Shown: piece by piece, positions 15,020 to 20,740 of the stretch
How the letters are laid out: the number at the start of each line of letters is the position of its first letter
Numbering within the stretch: the stretch's first letter is position 1
Source: Alistipes sp.
Lineage (GTDB): Bacteria; Bacteroidota; Bacteroidia; Bacteroidales; Rikenellaceae
Length of the DNA stretch: 64,000 nt
Reading direction: 5' to 3'
NCBI GenBank assembly: GCA_017629985.1
Contig: JAGBWD010000033.1
Location: 1 to 64,000 of the forward strand
Notes under the pieces: model-generated
The model's input: the letters and a program-made list of their open reading frames with translations, nothing else
Database searches by the model: none
Told to the model about the DNA's origin: nothing
Program-made: the position numbers and the translations under genes

Positions 15020-15673
15020 CTAGTCGTTCAGGTATACGTCAGCACCTCCCGACTTGCTGATATCTTTGTTTTCGGGATTACCTTTGTAGCTGACATCGGC
15101 ACCTCCCGAGGCATTCACCGTTAGGCTCTTTATGGCGTATACCTCGACATCTGCGCCTCCCGATGCTGCAACCTCTACATACTCCGATGGTAGCTCGTTA
15201 AGGTCTACATCTGCGCCTCCCGATGCGGCAACGGTGAGATATCTACAGATACCCTTGATTTCGATGTCGGCGCCTCCCGATATTGCTAACGTGAGGTACT
15301 CCGAGCCGCAGTAGTACCAATCCATGTCGCAGCCTCCCGATAGTGCTACGGTGGTGTAGCCTAGGGCTGGGATGCGTACATTGAAGGTCTTTGGGTATGG
15401 GTTTGTTGATGTGAGGCCTATGTTTAGCGTCATGCCCTCGGTCTCAATCTTTAGGTTGTCAAAGACGTCAGTGTGTGTGGTTACACGTATCTCGTTGCGT
15501 GGAATGCTAGGGTCTACAATGATGTTTGCGCTACCCGATGCTGCAATAGATGTGATTTCACATGTGAGGGGGAATGTGCGCTCCTCGACCTCTCCTGTAG
15601 CGACATTCTGATTCGTGGTGATGTGTATGCACGATGTAAGTGCTAACGCTAGAATAAATGATGTAAGTCTCAT
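15020..15673 (-). CDS. DUF2807 (head GIN domain) lipoprotein
   Basis: 217 residues. A lipoprotein signal ends at Cys15 (ALTSC). The body is a beta-solenoid: the motif A-S/A-G-G-A-D-V recurs about six times at roughly 17-22-residue spacing between residues 115 and 215 (for example TVAASGGADVDLNELPSEY). Such DUF2807 proteins are exported; no enzyme activity is known. The gene starts 12 nt after the outer-membrane barrel gene stops, so they form one operon, and it may attach to the barrel or the cell surface. Confidence 0.85.
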   Translation of the reverse strand: MRLTSFILALALTSCIHITTNQNVATGEVEERTFPLTCEITSIAASGSANIIVDPSIPRNEIRVTTHTDVFDNLKIETEGMTLNIGLTSTNPYPKTFNVRIPALGYTTVALSGGCDMDWYYCGSEYLTLAISGGADIEIKGICRYLTVAASGGADVDLNELPSEYVEVAASGGADVEVYAIKSLTVNASGGADVSYKGNPENKDISKSGGADVYLND

Positions 15674-15685
15674 ATTGGTAATTTT

Positions 15686-18100
15686 TTAGTTGTTGCTATT
15701 TCCTCCGCCACCAAGACGCTCGCGGTCTGCTGCCGAGCCACTCTCTACGCTCTTTGCGCGGAACTGCTTTCCTGCGCTGAAGTTATACGATATCTGGAAC
15801 TTCGCCGAGGGGCGTGACCATGGCTGGTCGATAATCATCTCGCGCTTAAATGTTGGCTCCTCGATGGTTATAGTTTGTGTTGTTGGGATAATATTTTGAA
15901 CGCCAATGCTTATGGTAAGCCTCTTGTCAAGCATTCGCTTCTTGAGTGTTAGGTTTATGTTTCCCATGTCGTCCAAACGCGTATTTCCTGCCACTAAGCC
16001 GTGCATGTATCTACCATCAACCTCTATGAAGAACTCCTTGGGTAGGGAGAAGGAAATCTGCGCGTTGGCCGTACACATAAAGCTGCGGCGTACAGGCTCC
16101 TCGGGGTATATGCGCTGACCGAGGTACATCGCCATAACATTTAGGTTTGTGGACCACCACTTTGTAATCTGGAATGGTAGGTTTGCCGCGGCGTAGAAGT
16201 TGTTGAGCGTAGGGTAGTTGATGTGCTTCATGATAAGCACCTCGGGGTTCTCCTTGTCGATAATTGTGGTCTGCTGTATGGCATCCTCCGTAATCTTCAT
16301 GCCTAGGGTGATGTTAAACTTATATTTTAGCACGAAGGTTAGCGATAGTGAGTTGTCGTATGAAGGGTTTAGCTCGGGGTTTCCGCACTGTATCATATAC
16401 TCCGATATCTTTGTCTCGCTGGGTGATAATGCCCAAAACGAGGGGCGGCTTATGGTGCGAGCATACTGCGCTACAATGGAGTAGGCACCATTCTTGGTTA
16501 GTGAGTATGAGATGTTGGCATTGGGGAACAATCCTGGGTAGTTCTTGTTTACCTTGCCATCCCTCGAGCGGAACCATGTATACTCGCCACGAAGACCTCC
16601 CACAAGACTCCAGCGTCCTAGACGTGCTGTGGCGATAAAGTATGCTGCTCCAATATCCTCGGTATATCCGATGTTGTAGCTTGTAGCATCATCTCTCTGC
16701 CATGCTCCATCGAGGAGCGTGTCGTATGTAGCTATATTGCTATTGGTGTTGTTCGTATACTTCACACCTGCCTTAAGGGTCACCTTGGGAGATAGCACCT
16801 GCTCTAGGGCCACTGTGGCCGTACCTAGCTGGTAGTGGGATTGGGTGTTATCGCGCGACTCCATAGTACTCTTTGTGTCAGGCTCTTGGAGTTCGTATGT
16901 GGTGTCTATGTAGTGGTTGCCGTTGGGGTATCTCGAGCTGGTGTAGTCGCCGATAAACTTCAGTTTAGAACCCTTGTTATCGAGCTTATAGATGTAGTTG
17001 AGTGTGGCGGTGACCATCTGGCTTGTGTAGTCGTTACTGTATAGGCCCTCGATGCGTGTTGCTGTTTCGGAGCTCTTGCGCTCGGTCCATGTGTCGGTGT
17101 CACCGTTGCCACCATAGTAGTTATACTGTATCTCGCCACCCAAGGAGTGCTTGTCGGTGATATCGTAGACGATACCTACGTTACCGCCGCCCCACAATGA
17201 TTTGTTGTAGAGCAGCGACTTTGCGTCAATGACGCTACTCTCGGTATTTGTGTATGTGGTATGCTCTGTGCTTTCATTGTAGTTGCCCGTTGTGCCAAAC
17301 CATGCCCTACCATAGGCATTTATCTTGCCGCGGTTGTAGTTGAGCGATAGAGATGGCATCACATTATACATACCCTTGGTTCCATTCACAACAAGCGATG
17401 TGGTACCCATAAGTCCCGAGTCGTTGCGCTTCTTGGTGGTGATGTTGATGATACCTCCCGAAGATGAAGCATCATAGTCGGCTCCCGAGAGTGGGATAAC
17501 CTCGATACGTTGTATATCCTCGGCACGCAACGAACGTAGGTAGGCGATAAGCTGCTCCTTGTCCATCTTCACCTCGCGGTCGTTGATGTATACCTTTGAC
17601 CCTGAAGCGCCGTTGATGGATATTGCATCGTCTTGAATCCACACGCCTGGCGCCGTCTTTAGAAGCTCCTCGCCATCCTTGCCTATTGCTATAGGTGAGT
17701 TGGCAACGTCTACAACAAAGCGGTCTGCCTCGCGGCGTATGAGCTGCGCTGTTACTACCACCTCGTCAATCTTCTCGCTATCTTCGGCAAGGGTGATGTC
17801 GTCAAGGGTGGTGTTCTCCGTAAGTGATATATCAAGCTGTGCGCTCTTATATCCCACGTAGCTGACGTTGAGGGTGTAGTTGCCACTCGTAGCTGTGATG
17901 GTGTAGCGTCCTTCGCTATTTGTTGTTGTACCTGTTATCTGACTCTTCTGCTCGAGGAGGACAACTGTGGCGTAGGGTATAGGTTGCCCCGCGCTATTTA
18001 TCACACGACCCCCTAGTGAGTATCGCTGTGCCAAGATGGTGCTTGAGCTACCTACGATAAGCACCATGACGGCCATAGCTATTTGAATAAATCGTTTCAT
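15686..18100 (-). CDS. Outer-membrane beta-barrel protein (TonB-receptor-like)
   Basis: 804 residues from the ATG at 18100 (MKRFIQIAMAVMVLIVGSSS, a signal peptide); an in-frame ATG at 18130 lies before it. Order: signal peptide, a carboxypeptidase-regulatory-like beta-sandwich (about 25-110, GRVINSAGQPIPYATVVLLE), a plug-like segment (about 115-225, VYINDREVKMDKEQL), then a long barrel. This matches the Bacteroidota barrel family related to TonB receptors but without a SusD partner. Its promoter carries the same operator as the divergent ABC-GntR operon, and it is followed by a DUF2807 lipoprotein. The substrate is unknown; a peptide, metal complex or antibiotic are all possible. Confidence 0.88.
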   Translation of the reverse strand: MKRFIQIAMAVMVLIVGSSSTILAQRYSLGGRVINSAGQPIPYATVVLLEQKSQITGTTTNSEGRYTITATSGNYTLNVSYVGYKSAQLDISLTENTTLDDITLAEDSEKIDEVVVTAQLIRREADRFVVDVANSPIAIGKDGEELLKTAPGVWIQDDAISINGASGSKVYINDREVKMDKEQLIAYLRSLRAEDIQRIEVIPLSGADYDASSSGGIINITTKKRNDSGLMGTTSLVVNGTKGMYNVMPSLSLNYNRGKINAYGRAWFGTTGNYNESTEHTTYTNTESSVIDAKSLLYNKSLWGGGNVGIVYDITDKHSLGGEIQYNYYGGNGDTDTWTERKSSETATRIEGLYSNDYTSQMVTATLNYIYKLDNKGSKLKFIGDYTSSRYPNGNHYIDTTYELQEPDTKSTMESRDNTQSHYQLGTATVALEQVLSPKVTLKAGVKYTNNTNSNIATYDTLLDGAWQRDDATSYNIGYTEDIGAAYFIATARLGRWSLVGGLRGEYTWFRSRDGKVNKNYPGLFPNANISYSLTKNGAYSIVAQYARTISRPSFWALSPSETKISEYMIQCGNPELNPSYDNSLSLTFVLKYKFNITLGMKITEDAIQQTTIIDKENPEVLIMKHINYPTLNNFYAAANLPFQITKWWSTNLNVMAMYLGQRIYPEEPVRRSFMCTANAQISFSLPKEFFIEVDGRYMHGLVAGNTRLDDMGNINLTLKKRMLDKRLTISIGVQNIIPTTQTITIEEPTFKREMIIDQPWSRPSAKFQISYNFSAGKQFRAKSVESGSAADRERLGGGGNSNN

Positions 18101-18188
18101 CTCTAAATCTGTTTGCACGGCTATATACAATACGTATTGTTATGCCGTTTTGTTGCACAAAGTTTTCGGAATTGTGTTGTTTTGTGGT

Positions 18189-18208
18189 GTGTTACTCAAC
18201 TAGTACAC
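18189..18208 (-). promoter_or_regulatory. Probable GntR operator at the barrel-gene start site
   Basis: On the minus strand, GTGTACTA and AGTAACAC form an imperfect dyad just after the -7 box. The first 20 nt from the -7 box match the ABC-operon promoter at 16 or 17 positions, including TTTGCAGTGTA, then C or T, then TAGT. Confidence 0.75.
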
Positions 18209-18210
18209 TG

Positions 18211-18242
18211 CAAATATATCTTCAATTTTTCATACTTGCAAA
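18211..18242 (-). promoter_or_regulatory. Promoter of the barrel/DUF2807 operon
   Basis: Minus strand: TTTG at 18242-18239, 20-nt spacer, TATATTTG at 18218-18211. The expected start of transcription falls within the operator-like dyad. Confidence 0.8.
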
Positions 18243-18328
18243 TTTTTTGCTATAAATTTTATAGTAAAATAATATACCTATTTATATTTGTTTAGCCTCT
18301 CTTTTTATGAAAAAATATTACCGAAAAA

Positions 18329-18359
18329 TTTGGATATTAAGAAAAAGGTAGTACCTTTG
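18329..18359 (+). promoter_or_regulatory. Promoter of ABC transporter-GntR operon
   Basis: TTTG at 18329-18332, 19-nt spacer, TACCTTTG at 18352-18359. Between this and 18243 nothing else is visible in the 339-bp divergent gap. Confidence 0.85.
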
Positions 18360-18361
18360 CA

Positions 18362-18383
18362 GTGTATTAGTGGTGTAATACAC
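18362..18383 (+). promoter_or_regulatory. Probable GntR (YtrA-type) operator
   Basis: Perfect inverted repeat GTGTATTA - 6 nt - TAATACAC, starting 2 nt after the -7 box and so covering the transcription start. The half-site fits the GTnTA...TAnAC form known for GntR-family operators. The GntR gene is the third gene of this operon, so autorepression is the simplest model. Confidence 0.82.
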
Positions 18384-18439
18384 GTGGTGGCGAGAGGTTC
18401 GCTGCCAATCTCAACTGAACATAAAAAAACTTTACGACA

Positions 18440-19267
18440 ATGATTACAGCAAAAGAAGTCTCGTTTGGATACACCGCAGGAAGAGGGGTGTTGAACAATA
18501 TCTCGCTCACGCTGGGCGAGGGACATATTCACGGTCTGTTGGGCTGCAATGGTATAGGTAAGACAACACTCCTAAAGCTTATTTGTGGCATTATGCGTCC
18601 CGACTCTGGAGAGATTACAGTAGATGGGTGCGATGCTATGTCTCGCCAACCAAAGATATTTAGTGAGTTGATGATACTCCCCGAGGAGTTCGATCTCCCA
18701 AATATATCTTTGGAGCGCTATGCAAAGGTTACCTCGCCATTCTATCCACGCTTTGACATGGGGCAGATGCGTGGCTACTGCCAGGAGTTGGGTGTAAATC
18801 CTCTGGAGCGACTACACTCTATGTCGATGGGTCAGCGCAAGAAGGCATATATCGCCTTTGCCTTGGCTTGTAATGTGAGAATGTTGCTTATGGATGAGCC
18901 TACAAATGGTCTTGATATACCATCCAAGAGCGTATTCCGCAGGTTGTTGGCCGGATATGTGGATGAGAATCGTATGGTTATCATCTCTACGCATCAGGTG
19001 GCAGATGTGGAGTCGCTCCTTGATAGTATCGTGATTCTCGATGCAAAGGGTGTTGCGCTGAATGCTACTACCGCAGAGATATGTCAGCGTCTTAAGTTTG
19101 GTAAGGCTTCGGAGGGGGATAGGGTTGTCTACTCGGAGCGCACCATAGCTGGAGATATGGCGGTGATATATAACGAGAATGAGGAGGAATCACAACTAAA
19201 CATAGAGCTTCTCTTTAATGCCACAGTGGCTAACAGAGATGCTATACGTGCAATTTTTAATAAGTAG
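18440..19267 (+). CDS. ABC transporter ATP-binding protein
   Basis: 275 residues, a single ATPase domain: Walker A GCNGIGKTT (about 35-43), signature SMGQRKKAY (about 128), Walker B LLMDEPTNGLD (about 150), switch His in STHQVAD. The signature has Met for the usual Ser-Gly (SMGQ), as in many YtrB/ABC-2 exporters. The C-terminal 60 residues are a family-like accessory tail. It pairs with the permease 5 nt downstream and the GntR regulator after it, the arrangement of YtrA-type antibiotic or envelope-stress exporters. The substrate is unknown. Confidence 0.92.
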   Translation: MITAKEVSFGYTAGRGVLNNISLTLGEGHIHGLLGCNGIGKTTLLKLICGIMRPDSGEITVDGCDAMSRQPKIFSELMILPEEFDLPNISLERYAKVTSPFYPRFDMGQMRGYCQELGVNPLERLHSMSMGQRKKAYIAFALACNVRMLLMDEPTNGLDIPSKSVFRRLLAGYVDENRMVIISTHQVADVESLLDSIVILDAKGVALNATTAEICQRLKFGKASEGDRVVYSERTIAGDMAVIYNENEEESQLNIELLFNATVANRDAIRAIFNK

Positions 19268-19272
19268 GGATT

Positions 19273-19986
19273 ATGGGAGTATTTTCATTAAGACGCGTAG
19301 TTGATTATCTGCGCTACATCTATACTGTTCAGGCAAAGAACTATTTGTGGAACCTAATGAGTCTGTTTGCTGTGCCGCTCTTCTTTGCTGTGCTATCTCG
19401 AGATGTCGGTACAGCATCCTCAATGGCGATGTTTGTATATATCGTTGCGGCATGGGTGTTCCCCGTGCGTGAGATGTCACCTCTGCGCGGTAGGGGTACC
19501 AAGGTTATGGCGATGACGCTCCCCGTATCTACCGAGGAGCGCTTGGTGGCGATGATGTTTAACCTTATGGTGGTCCTCCCTGTAGCCTCGCTCCTTACCT
19601 CGGTGTTGGCTGTTGTTGCTGCCGCGCCATTTGACTATCATAGCATGAGTACTCCTGCGATTATGGAGTTTCTAGGTTCTCATGTTGGTCGTTACTACCT
19701 AGAGTGGTCAATATATGTCCTCGTGCAGTTGTTTGCCGCGGTGTCGCTCTTTATGGCTATAATCTCGCGCCGTAGCATTATGGCTACCTATGCAGTTGTG
19801 ATAGTGGGTATTATCCTGTTTTTGTATGTTGTGGTGGGCTTTGCGGTAGACCATGAGTGGTACATCAATATTGAGGCAAATATCGAGACGGTGGAGATAG
19901 CGGGCAAAATTTTCTACTGTTTGCTCCCTGTGGTGTTCTACGTATTGAGTTATGTGGCGTTGAGGAGACGTCAGGTAAAATGGTAG
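19273..19986 (+). CDS. ABC-2 type permease-like membrane protein
   Basis: 237 residues with about six hydrophobic segments (near 22-40, 45-65, 95-120, 145-165, 170-195, 212-230) and little soluble sequence. It has the size and topology of the permease partner of the preceding ATPase, though I see no family-defining motif. Five nt separate it from the ATPase gene and 3 nt from the GntR gene. The transporter is probably a homodimer of this protein with two ATPases; direction, by analogy, is export. Confidence 0.82.
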   Translation: MGVFSLRRVVDYLRYIYTVQAKNYLWNLMSLFAVPLFFAVLSRDVGTASSMAMFVYIVAAWVFPVREMSPLRGRGTKVMAMTLPVSTEERLVAMMFNLMVVLPVASLLTSVLAVVAAAPFDYHSMSTPAIMEFLGSHVGRYYLEWSIYVLVQLFAAVSLFMAIISRRSIMATYAVVIVGIILFLYVVVGFAVDHEWYINIEANIETVEIAGKIFYCLLPVVFYVLSYVALRRRQVKW

Positions 19987-19989
19987 GTT

Positions 19990-20334
19990 ATGATGCAGTT
20001 TACAGAGGAGAAGCCTATATGGCGACAGATATATGAGCTTATCGCAATGCGCATCCTCTCGGGAGAGTGGGCAGAGATGGAGCGTATAGTGTCGGTAAGG
20101 GAGATGGCTGCTGCGGTGGGCGTGAACCCCAATACCGTTATGCGTAGCTACGAAAAACTAGAGGCTGATGGTATCATCTTCAACCGTAGAGGTATAGGAT
20201 TCTTTGTGTCGGAGGGTGCGAAGGATCATATCAAACAGCTTGAGCGTAAGAAGTTTATGGACGAGGAGCTTCCAAAGCTCAAGGAGCGACTGTCGCACAT
20301 AGGACTTACGATTGAGGTGAGAGTGAAGGATTAG
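19990..20334 (+). CDS. GntR family transcriptional regulator, YtrA subfamily
   Basis: 114 residues: an N-terminal winged helix-turn-helix (about 8-75; SVREMAAAVGVNPNTVMRSY is the recognition region) and only a short helical tail of about 40 residues. That short tail defines the YtrA subfamily, whose members usually sit with ABC transporter genes and repress them. The start could be either of two adjacent Met codons (19990 or 19993). It should bind the dyads at 18362-18383 and 18189-18208. The inducer is not known. Confidence 0.9.
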   Translation: MMQFTEEKPIWRQIYELIAMRILSGEWAEMERIVSVREMAAAVGVNPNTVMRSYEKLEADGIIFNRRGIGFFVSEGAKDHIKQLERKKFMDEELPKLKERLSHIGLTIEVRVKD

Positions 20335-20342
20335 ACTATCGC

Positions 20343-20394
20343 AAAAAAAAAAGATTCAGAGGAGTTGGCAACTGCTAGCTCCTCTGAATCTTTT
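20343..20394. terminator. Bidirectional terminator, GntR operon and yjdM
   Basis: Perfect 14-bp stem AAGATTCAGAGGAG / CTCCTCTGAATCTT with a 14-nt loop, A-run before and T-run after; between converging genes. Confidence 0.92.
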
Positions 20395-20410
20395 ATGTGC
20401 AGGCGTATGA

Positions 20411-20740
20411 CTACTTCTTTAGGAAGCAGGTCTTAAGTACGATGCTGCTGCCGTCAATTTTGCAATCTACCTCCTCGGGGTTGTCGGTAAGGCGGATGCT
20501 TTTAACCTTTGTGCCGCGCTTGATAACCATAGACGAGCCTTTGACCTTTAGATCCTTGATAACTGTCACAGCGTCGCCATCGCATAGCTCGGCGCCGTTG
20601 CTGTCACGGGCGATGTCATTAGTGTCGTTGCTCTCTTCGCCAGCATTAAATTCATGACCGCAATCTGGGCATACGTTTAGTGAGCCATCGAAGTAGGTGT
20701 TTTCGCCGCCACACTTGGGGCAATGAGGTGTATTTGTCAT
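20411..20740 (-). CDS. yjdM: Zinc-ribbon protein YjdM (PhnA family)
   Basis: 109 residues. An N-terminal zinc ribbon (CPKCGG at 8-13 and CPDCGH about 20 residues later) and a C-terminal small beta-barrel (DGDAVTVIKDLKVKG). This is the family once called PhnA; its link to phosphonate use is now considered weak and its role is unknown. The gene stands alone, converging on the GntR operon. The acidic linker (about 33-47) varies in the family. Confidence 0.92.
   Translation of the reverse strand: MTNTPHCPKCGGENTYFDGSLNVCPDCGHEFNAGEESNDTNDIARDSNGAELCDGDAVTVIKDLKVKGSSMVIKRGTKVKSIRLTDNPEEVDCKIDGSSIVLKTCFLKK

Follow-up and report, generated by a model that had tools for sequence, protein, structure and literature searches.

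The window analysed here is a 64,000-nucleotide stretch of a contig from a gut Alistipes sp. (family Rikenellaceae) in which two operons point away from each other across an intergenic gap (18097 to 18440). The plus-strand operon encodes a 275-amino-acid ABC transporter ATPase (18440..19267; Pfam ABC_tran, 1.8e-24), a helical protein of 237 amino acids that is the presumed membrane partner of the ATPase (19273..19986), and a GntR-family regulator of YtrA size, 114 amino acids long (19990..20334; Pfam GntR [PF00392], 3.6e-13, residues 12 to 73). The genes are tightly packed, with 5 nt between the ABC and membrane protein genes and 3 nt between the latter and gntR. The minus-strand operon encodes an outer-membrane barrel (15686..18097; OMP_b-brl_3, 9.3e-86), which is 803 amino acids long from the ATG at 18097, lies in an open frame that begins at TTG 18130, and has a CarboxypepD_reg-like N terminus. 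Behind the barrel lies a DUF2807 (head GIN/Toastrack) protein of 217 amino acids (15020..15673; Pfam, 1.8e-24), the translated N terminus of which looks lipobox-like by eye. The DUF2807 domain places this protein in the Toastrack superfamily, the name under which DUF2807, DUF4097, and DUF2154 have been unified (PMC11237479). A Pfam scan of the six proteins of 15020 to 20740 found no PspA or PspC partner.

Comparisons of the individual proteins gave hints of varying strength. The best NCBIfam matches of the ATPase were the exporter families PmtA, DrrA, and lantibiotic protection, all under their cut-offs (best 25 of 182), and no operon protein had a match above cut-off among the matches listed. 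The membrane partner belonged to no Pfam family and was modeled as all helices (pLDDT, 78.7); in Foldseek it weakly resembled NosDFY and ABCG chains (best E, 0.17), with no match under E 0.001. For the barrel, the best 50 Foldseek matches listed were all TonB-dependent receptors (best E, 2.7e-16; TM, 0.39/0.47), as searched with a low-confidence model (pLDDT, 67.3; pTM, 0.53). Pfam at 1e-3 found OMP_b-brl_3 and no Plug domain in the window barrel, and it detected Plug in all three of the relatives' regulon barrels that were submitted. No solute-binding protein was recognized by Pfam among the window proteins scanned.

The regulator has the features of the YtrA subfamily. It is the single PF00392 match in the assembly at E≤0.001, the winged helix domain is N-terminal, and the gene shares an operon with an ABC transporter. 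Its profile aligned with 2du9 over positions 8 to 116, nearly the full length (E, 1e-17), and with 3ic7 (E, 4e-44); the solved relatives also include 2ek5, and we take 2du9 and 2ek5 to be the YtrA-type protein CGL2947. The closest named relative, at locus L123, is 97% identical and also comes from an Alistipes sp. By length, the C-terminal part is short, with 41 of the 114 residues lying past the GntR domain, and the YtrA C-terminal domain is described as very short, about 50 amino acids in two helices, compared with the FadR, HutC, and MocR domains (PMC4494728).

Both operons are preceded by sequences resembling TTTG-N19/20-TANNTTTG, which we take to be the Bacteroidota promoter form, with TTTG as the −33 box and TANNTTTG as the −7 box. 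On the minus strand, the barrel/DUF2807 promoter has TTTG at 18239..18242 and, after a 20-nt spacer, the −7 box TATATTTG at 18211..18218, followed by CAGTGTACTAGTTGAGTAACACAC. On the plus strand, the ABC-GntR promoter has TTTG at 18329..18332 and, after a 19-nt spacer, the −7 box TACCTTTG at 18352..18359, followed by CAGTGTATTAGTGGTGTAATACAC. A 22-bp dyad begins 2 nt past the −7 box in each case, operator A (GTGTATTAGTGGTGTAATACAC) at 18362..18383 on the plus strand and operator B (GTGTACTAGTTGAGTAACACAC) at 18187..18208 on the minus strand, with the consensus GTGTAYTA-N6-TARYACAC. Direct comparison of the two sites, counted from TTTG, gave 24 equal positions out of 28, and a repeat search of the window detected the two sites as inverted copies of 28 nt (86%) separated by 141 nt. 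Within the dyads themselves, 8 of 11 and 7 of 11 pairs were symmetric. The initial annotation had described an identical operator with a GTGTA-type dyad at both promoters; the shared site is real and the dyad is present at both, whereas the two copies are near-identical rather than identical and the true dyad is longer, at 22 bp. That two divergent promoters each carry a dyad downstream can be seen directly in the sequence, and we conclude that the paired dyads are real.

The form of the dyad agrees with the assignment of the regulator. Operators of the YtrA subfamily are described as long palindromes with GT and AC distant from the center (PMC4494728), and the window dyad, GTGTA-N12-TACAC over 22 bp, fits that description. 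Its half-sites, AGTGTA and TACAC, are 12 bp apart, versus the 13 bp quoted for the Bacillus subtilis YtrA site, AGTGTA-13bp-TACACT, which lies before two operons (PMC8060467).

Chance was weighed with patterns of different length. The short core CAGTGTAYTAGT with at most one mismatch had 2 matches versus 0.74 expected, and 20 of 100 shuffles reached 2, such that the core alone is weak evidence and insufficient to exclude chance. Among the 62 TANNTTTG sites in the window, however, the operator pair was the most alike, with 20 of 24 nt equal after TTTG against 14 for the next-best pair. Moreover, the full 22-bp pattern with at most three mismatches matched twice in the 1.76-Mb assembly (83.8% complete), both times at the window promoters, and a reversed-pattern control under the same threshold matched nowhere in the whole assembly. 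The whole-assembly search and the TANNTTTG-site comparison together rule out a chance origin of the dyad pair.

The initial annotation had pointed to the corresponding gap of related genomes as the place where paired dyads should recur, and they do. Four relatives have the same divergent layout (G106, G140, G118, and G147), and all four carry a dyad at both promoters, with a degenerate minus-strand −7 box in G106. Both dyads are likewise present at L123; at L125, the second dyad is degenerate, with a GTGTG half-site. In an alignment of six divergent spacers, conservation was concentrated in the two promoter-operator islands and in a short element near the center, ATACCTAT, which in the window lies between the two promoters at 18274..18281. 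The same element or a reverse-strand copy was found in five of seven divergent spacers (the window, L034 at 6525, L035 at 6838, L037 at 10587, and L123 at 6121), with a one-base variant in L036 and none in L125; ATACCTAT may be a second regulatory site. The distances between dyad centers were 175, 184, 191, 190, 188, and 184 bp. DNA looping between the operators was therefore rejected as a conserved feature, as the helical phase varies over 175 to 191 bp, and the lack of a constant phase favors two independent sites, each operator presumably acting on its own.

If the GntR protein reads the dyads, then regulator and operator should be found together, and we compared their distributions in a family sample of 150 genomes and an order sample of 393. 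The GntR query matched 58 of the family genomes at E≤0.001, and 42 of these, the window's genome included, matched at E<1e-19 and constitute the short type; DNA around the gene was fetched for 40 of the other 41, G073 being left out there. The pattern TTTGNNGTGTAYTANNNNNNTARTACAC with at most two mismatches was present in 41 of the 150 family genomes, and the reversed control was present in 3. The operator thus accompanied the short GntR in 40 of 42 genomes versus 1 of 108 others (Fisher p, 8e-33). In the order sample, the pattern was present in 119 of 393 genomes, namely, 106 of 122 with a strong GntR match versus 13 of 271 others (p, 1e-62), with seven weak matches to GntR (E between 1e-18 and 8e-16) scored as absent; both p values are inflated by close relatives. 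The family exceptions were few. In the lone operator genome without a short GntR (G107), the ABC gene behind the site is truncated by the contig edge. In the two GntR-positive misses, the dyad was perfect but lay away from the promoter (G049) or was a CTGTA-type variant (G112). In the order sample, 16 of the 122 GntR genomes lacked the pattern, and some of the matches outside the expected genomes are plausibly due to chance.

The dyad itself is highly symmetric, its outer five positions being symmetric in 35, 36, 36, 35, and 33 of 36 distinct dyads, and this near-constant outer symmetry is expected if a homodimer requires a symmetric site. The sites behind these motif statistics were found with the pattern itself, which biases the information content upward, and the accompanying log10 probability of about −29 was calculated from manually entered counts on the assumption of 0.9 genes per kb. 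We note that four genomes (G133, G116, G141, and G112; loci L070, L071, L073, and L068) carry an operator variant with CTGTA/TACAG half-sites, in which G has changed to C in both half-sites at once, one half being imperfect in G112.

The operator of the barrel might have been a by-product of its position next to the ABC-GntR operon, in which case it should be absent where the barrel gene is located at another place. In 12 family genomes, however, the operator fronts a PF14905 barrel gene that is unlinked to the ABC-GntR operon (G038, G130, G143, G110, G013, G040, G027, G073, G062, G109, G083, and G100), and thus adjacency alone does not account for the shared operator. These genomes hold 2 to 15 PF14905 matches each; in 11 of them the operator-bearing barrel was the top match, and in G027 it ranked second. 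A thirteenth unlinked site, on contig C24 of G017 (L120), has two mismatches, lies outside a TANNTTTG context, and has no labeled gene behind it. In G062 and G073, the operator also precedes another ABC gene, behind which come a frame the size of a permease and a barrel frame. In G017 and G035, operators are found before paralogous GntR-ABC operons as well; each of these second operons (L121 and L122) has its own variant operator (GTGCAATA...TAGTACAC), hinting at two regulators insulated from each other within one genome.

The barrel arm has clear limits. We defined a barrel relative as a match to the window barrel at E≤1e-20, and the 42 GntR-positive family genomes divided into 17 with an operator-bearing barrel (the window, 4 divergent, and 12 unlinked), 17 with operator-less barrel relatives, and 8 with no barrel match. 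Among the operator-less relatives, 13 genes from 12 genomes share 34 to 42% identity with the window barrel, and the best gene in each of the remaining 5 genomes is 24 to 30% identical. When 420 bp upstream of 26 operator-less barrel-like genes from 18 genomes was scanned, the best dyads had 4 to 7 mismatches, compared with 0 mismatches in all four divergent positives that served as the control. We therefore rejected the notion that every barrel of GntR-positive genomes belongs to the regulon, 17 such genomes having barrel relatives that lack an upstream dyad. In a tree built from 45 barrels, which has several long branches and some uncertain placements, the operator label needed 6 changes, at least 5 of them forced by well-supported branches, and thus the operator appears to have been gained or lost several times. 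We conclude that the barrel arm is not universal but belongs to certain lineages, among them that of the window.

At 80 named GntR loci, the usual operon was ABC, membrane protein, and GntR, and in some cases a barrel or a protein with DUF2807 or DUF4097 came next. A set of 80 regions was fetched from genomes of the order sample and of one additional genus, many of them picked because the genome had more than one site. In the additional genus, 59 of 60 genomes matched at up to three mismatches, but this cut-off is loose, and the reversed control matched many genomes as well. Sites were kept if they began with TTTG and either had a TANNTTTG context or had at most one mismatch. The filter removed two-mismatch sites of L250, L256, L258, L260, and L262, with no labeled gene behind, as well as the sites of L344 and L347, which begin with TTTA and TTCG. 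In the site table, two rows marked "none" were the reverse reading of dyads in L339 and L364. The 73 filtered sites with a gene behind them comprised 37 ABC-GntR operons, 16 barrels, 12 MacB-type pumps, 2 ABC2/RND pumps, 1 DUF3836 protein, and 5 frames of 277 to 399 amino acids that had no confident family assignment. Outside GntR operons, then, 30 of 36 sites front a barrel or an efflux pump. Local models additionally placed a barrel in 4 of the 37 GntR operons and a DUF2807 protein in 7. Pfam verified the pump proteins of L234 and L244, the DUF3836 protein, and three barrels, the other labels being from local models; one barrel label also caught GntR proteins of about 111 to 131 amino acids, as the L181 frame joins the two families, and the counts were taken from other labelings.

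Several of these loci held further features. In L181 (7989 to 10961), GntR and a barrel are in one open frame, linked by the in-frame ten-residue repeat QQQTTADNSR, possibly through repeat expansion between two genes. Five loci of genus g123 (L334, L337, L358, L359, and L371) have a frame of 277 to 399 amino acids behind the operator, four of the five being 388 to 399 amino acids; three have lipobox-like starts and three have weak C-terminal PDZ matches below cut-off, and these frames are possible further members of the regulon. In three loci of the same genus (L239, L333, and L340), a putative M16-peptidase-like gene lies directly after GntR or one gene further.

We propose that a YtrA-type GntR homodimer represses both divergent operons through one operator each and that an envelope signal releases both arms, a reading to which we assign a probability of about 0.82. 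The homodimer would bind one 22-bp operator at each promoter. As each operator begins 2 nt past a −7 box, it should cover the transcription start, and the bound dimer would block initiation at both promoters. The regulator would thereby silence two operons in parallel, its own ABC-permease-GntR operon and that for the barrel and the DUF2807 lipoprotein. The envelope signal would then free GntR and both arms would rise together, supplying a transporter for the inner membrane, a Toastrack lipoprotein, and, for the outer membrane, a TonB-receptor-like barrel. The initial annotation had assigned both operons to the one GntR protein. Conservation of the dyads, their tracking of GntR, and their position before unlinked barrels support that assignment at the level of sequence, with the correction that the barrel arm is lineage specific, and the window GntR is accordingly the probable binder of the dyads and their probable repressor. 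Overall, we read the system as a probable envelope/efflux regulon of YtrA type that has come to include the outer membrane.

The reading depends on GntR being the protein that recognizes the dyads. That some other transcription factor does so, with GntR as an operon bystander, might be suggested by the 13 of 271 order-level genomes that have the pattern without a strong GntR match, but we consider it very improbable given how tightly GntR and operator co-occur, that the half-sites equal the published YtrA site (PMC8060467), and that the assembly has one GntR-domain match. Nor is it credible that the two sites are mere relics of promoter duplication or gene conversion without shared regulation. 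They do share 24 of 28 positions within less than 200 bp, but both have been conserved though their flanks diverged, in 12 genomes unlinked barrels have this operator in front, and the barrel tree indicates repeated gain or loss. GntR could instead activate, or the dyads could tune the promoters by means other than repression; ClnR of Clostridioides difficile is reported both to repress and to be required for induction (PMC6117091). The location of the dyad, where a bound dimer should block initiation, makes this improbable, and YtrA, PmtR, and YtrASa are all reported as repressors (PMC8060467, PMC5080381, and PMC6746942).

The direction of transport is a separate matter. The dyads might be GntR bound and the ABC transporter, TonB-receptor-like barrel, and lipoprotein might import something: the barrel resembles TonB-dependent receptors, Plug was detected in the relatives' barrels, and a similar operon of Porphyromonas gingivalis has been described among hemin-related transport genes (PMC3764172). 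A barrel of this kind, as modeled, would also fit uptake. We nonetheless regard import as unlikely, since no solute-binding protein was recognized among the scanned window proteins, the ATPase scores best with exporter families, albeit below cut-offs, the membrane partner is weakly NosDFY/ABCG-like, and elsewhere in the order this operator is found before MacB- and RND-type pumps. The presence of MacB-type and RND pumps in the predicted regulon points to export or envelope protection, and the ABC transporter of the window probably exports, whether for detoxification or for envelope homeostasis. More tentatively, a YtrA-type response may have been extended over both membranes in this order, and PF14905 barrels may have joined the operator in several lineages as a working outer-membrane partner of the ABC system, giving a transporter-lipoprotein-barrel machine that would be undescribed; this is a possibility that we rate well below even, and in such a machine the barrel might be an exit path, a sensor, or a repair factor.

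Known members of the subfamily resemble the proposed system in part. In the YtrA regulon of B. subtilis (ytrGABCDEF and ywoBCD), as in the window, a small GntR is encoded inside the ABC operon it controls, the half-sites are AGTGTA/TACACT, and the second target operon encodes membrane proteins among others (PMC8060467 and PMC12772383). The window differs from it in that the half-sites are 12 rather than 13 bp apart, a single divergent spacer serves both targets, and the second operon encodes an outer-membrane barrel and a Toastrack lipoprotein, which would be impossible in a single-membrane cell. YtrASa of Sulfolobus acidocaldarius is likewise reported to repress its own operon and one membrane-protein locus from a site over the start, but its core site is 14 bp, its host is an archaeon, and the available text describes no outer-membrane arm (PMC6746942). 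PmtR of Staphylococcus aureus and ClnR of C. difficile are YtrA-type regulators of ABC transporters and are peptide responsive (PMC5080381 and PMC6117091). Their hosts, however, are single-membrane cells with no outer-membrane target, and the peptide response is theirs; by analogy with them and with B. subtilis YtrA, we guess that the inducer in the window is an antibiotic or a peptide. The Toastrack-ABC-permease-GNTR-DUF2884 operons described in 2024 in the context of PSP are also similar; they combine a Toastrack protein, an ABC ATPase, a permease, and GntR, and for which the available text mentions no barrel, operator, or unlinked target (PMC11237479). A 2015 comparative study covered 229 YtrA-subfamily regulators, none from Bacteroidetes according to its available text, and reported divergent YtrA regulons to be very rare (PMC4494728). 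No paper on this operator or on YtrA-type barrel co-regulation in Bacteroidota was among the hits listed in the literature searches, with regulon databases and most subscription papers outside their scope.

Published expression data from P. gingivalis offer a possible parallel. PGN_1343-1349 encodes an ABC ATPase, two membrane proteins, GntR, a TonB-dependent receptor, a lipoprotein, and a peptidase, and PGN_0449-0444 encodes a possible membrane protein, an ABC ATPase, two permeases, a membrane-fusion protein, and an outer-membrane efflux protein; on arrays, the first cluster and this MacB-like pump rose together under three hemin conditions (PMC3764172). The gene content of the two clusters resembles that of the predicted regulon, and the operator there is a prediction. 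The changes by quantitative reverse transcription-PCR were small, with 18 to 75% increases and a 15% decrease of PGN_0449 in one condition, and the authors linked the first operon to HaeR, which they reported to bind in the promoter region of that GntR cluster, and called the effect on the second operon indirect (PMC3764172). In a har mutant, PGN_0444 and PGN_0446-0449 were listed as decreased, and tags beginning PGN_134 were absent from the text of the paper on that mutant. PG1664 and PG1665 of the pump were reported to be down after a low-dose antimicrobial peptide (PMC5316201), which counts against simple induction by peptides. A different P. gingivalis locus, PG1175-PG1181, was considered as the match and rejected as a different, TetR-linked locus.

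The operators of transcription factors in Bacteroidota are, to our knowledge, poorly mapped, and an operator as strong as this one makes a regulon legible from the sequence by itself. Predictions follow on which barrels and pumps would switch on together, and the GntR regulon is a candidate second layer of control for the co-expression published for P. gingivalis. Moreover, the function of OMP_b-brl_3 and DUF2807 proteins becomes testable by way of one regulator.
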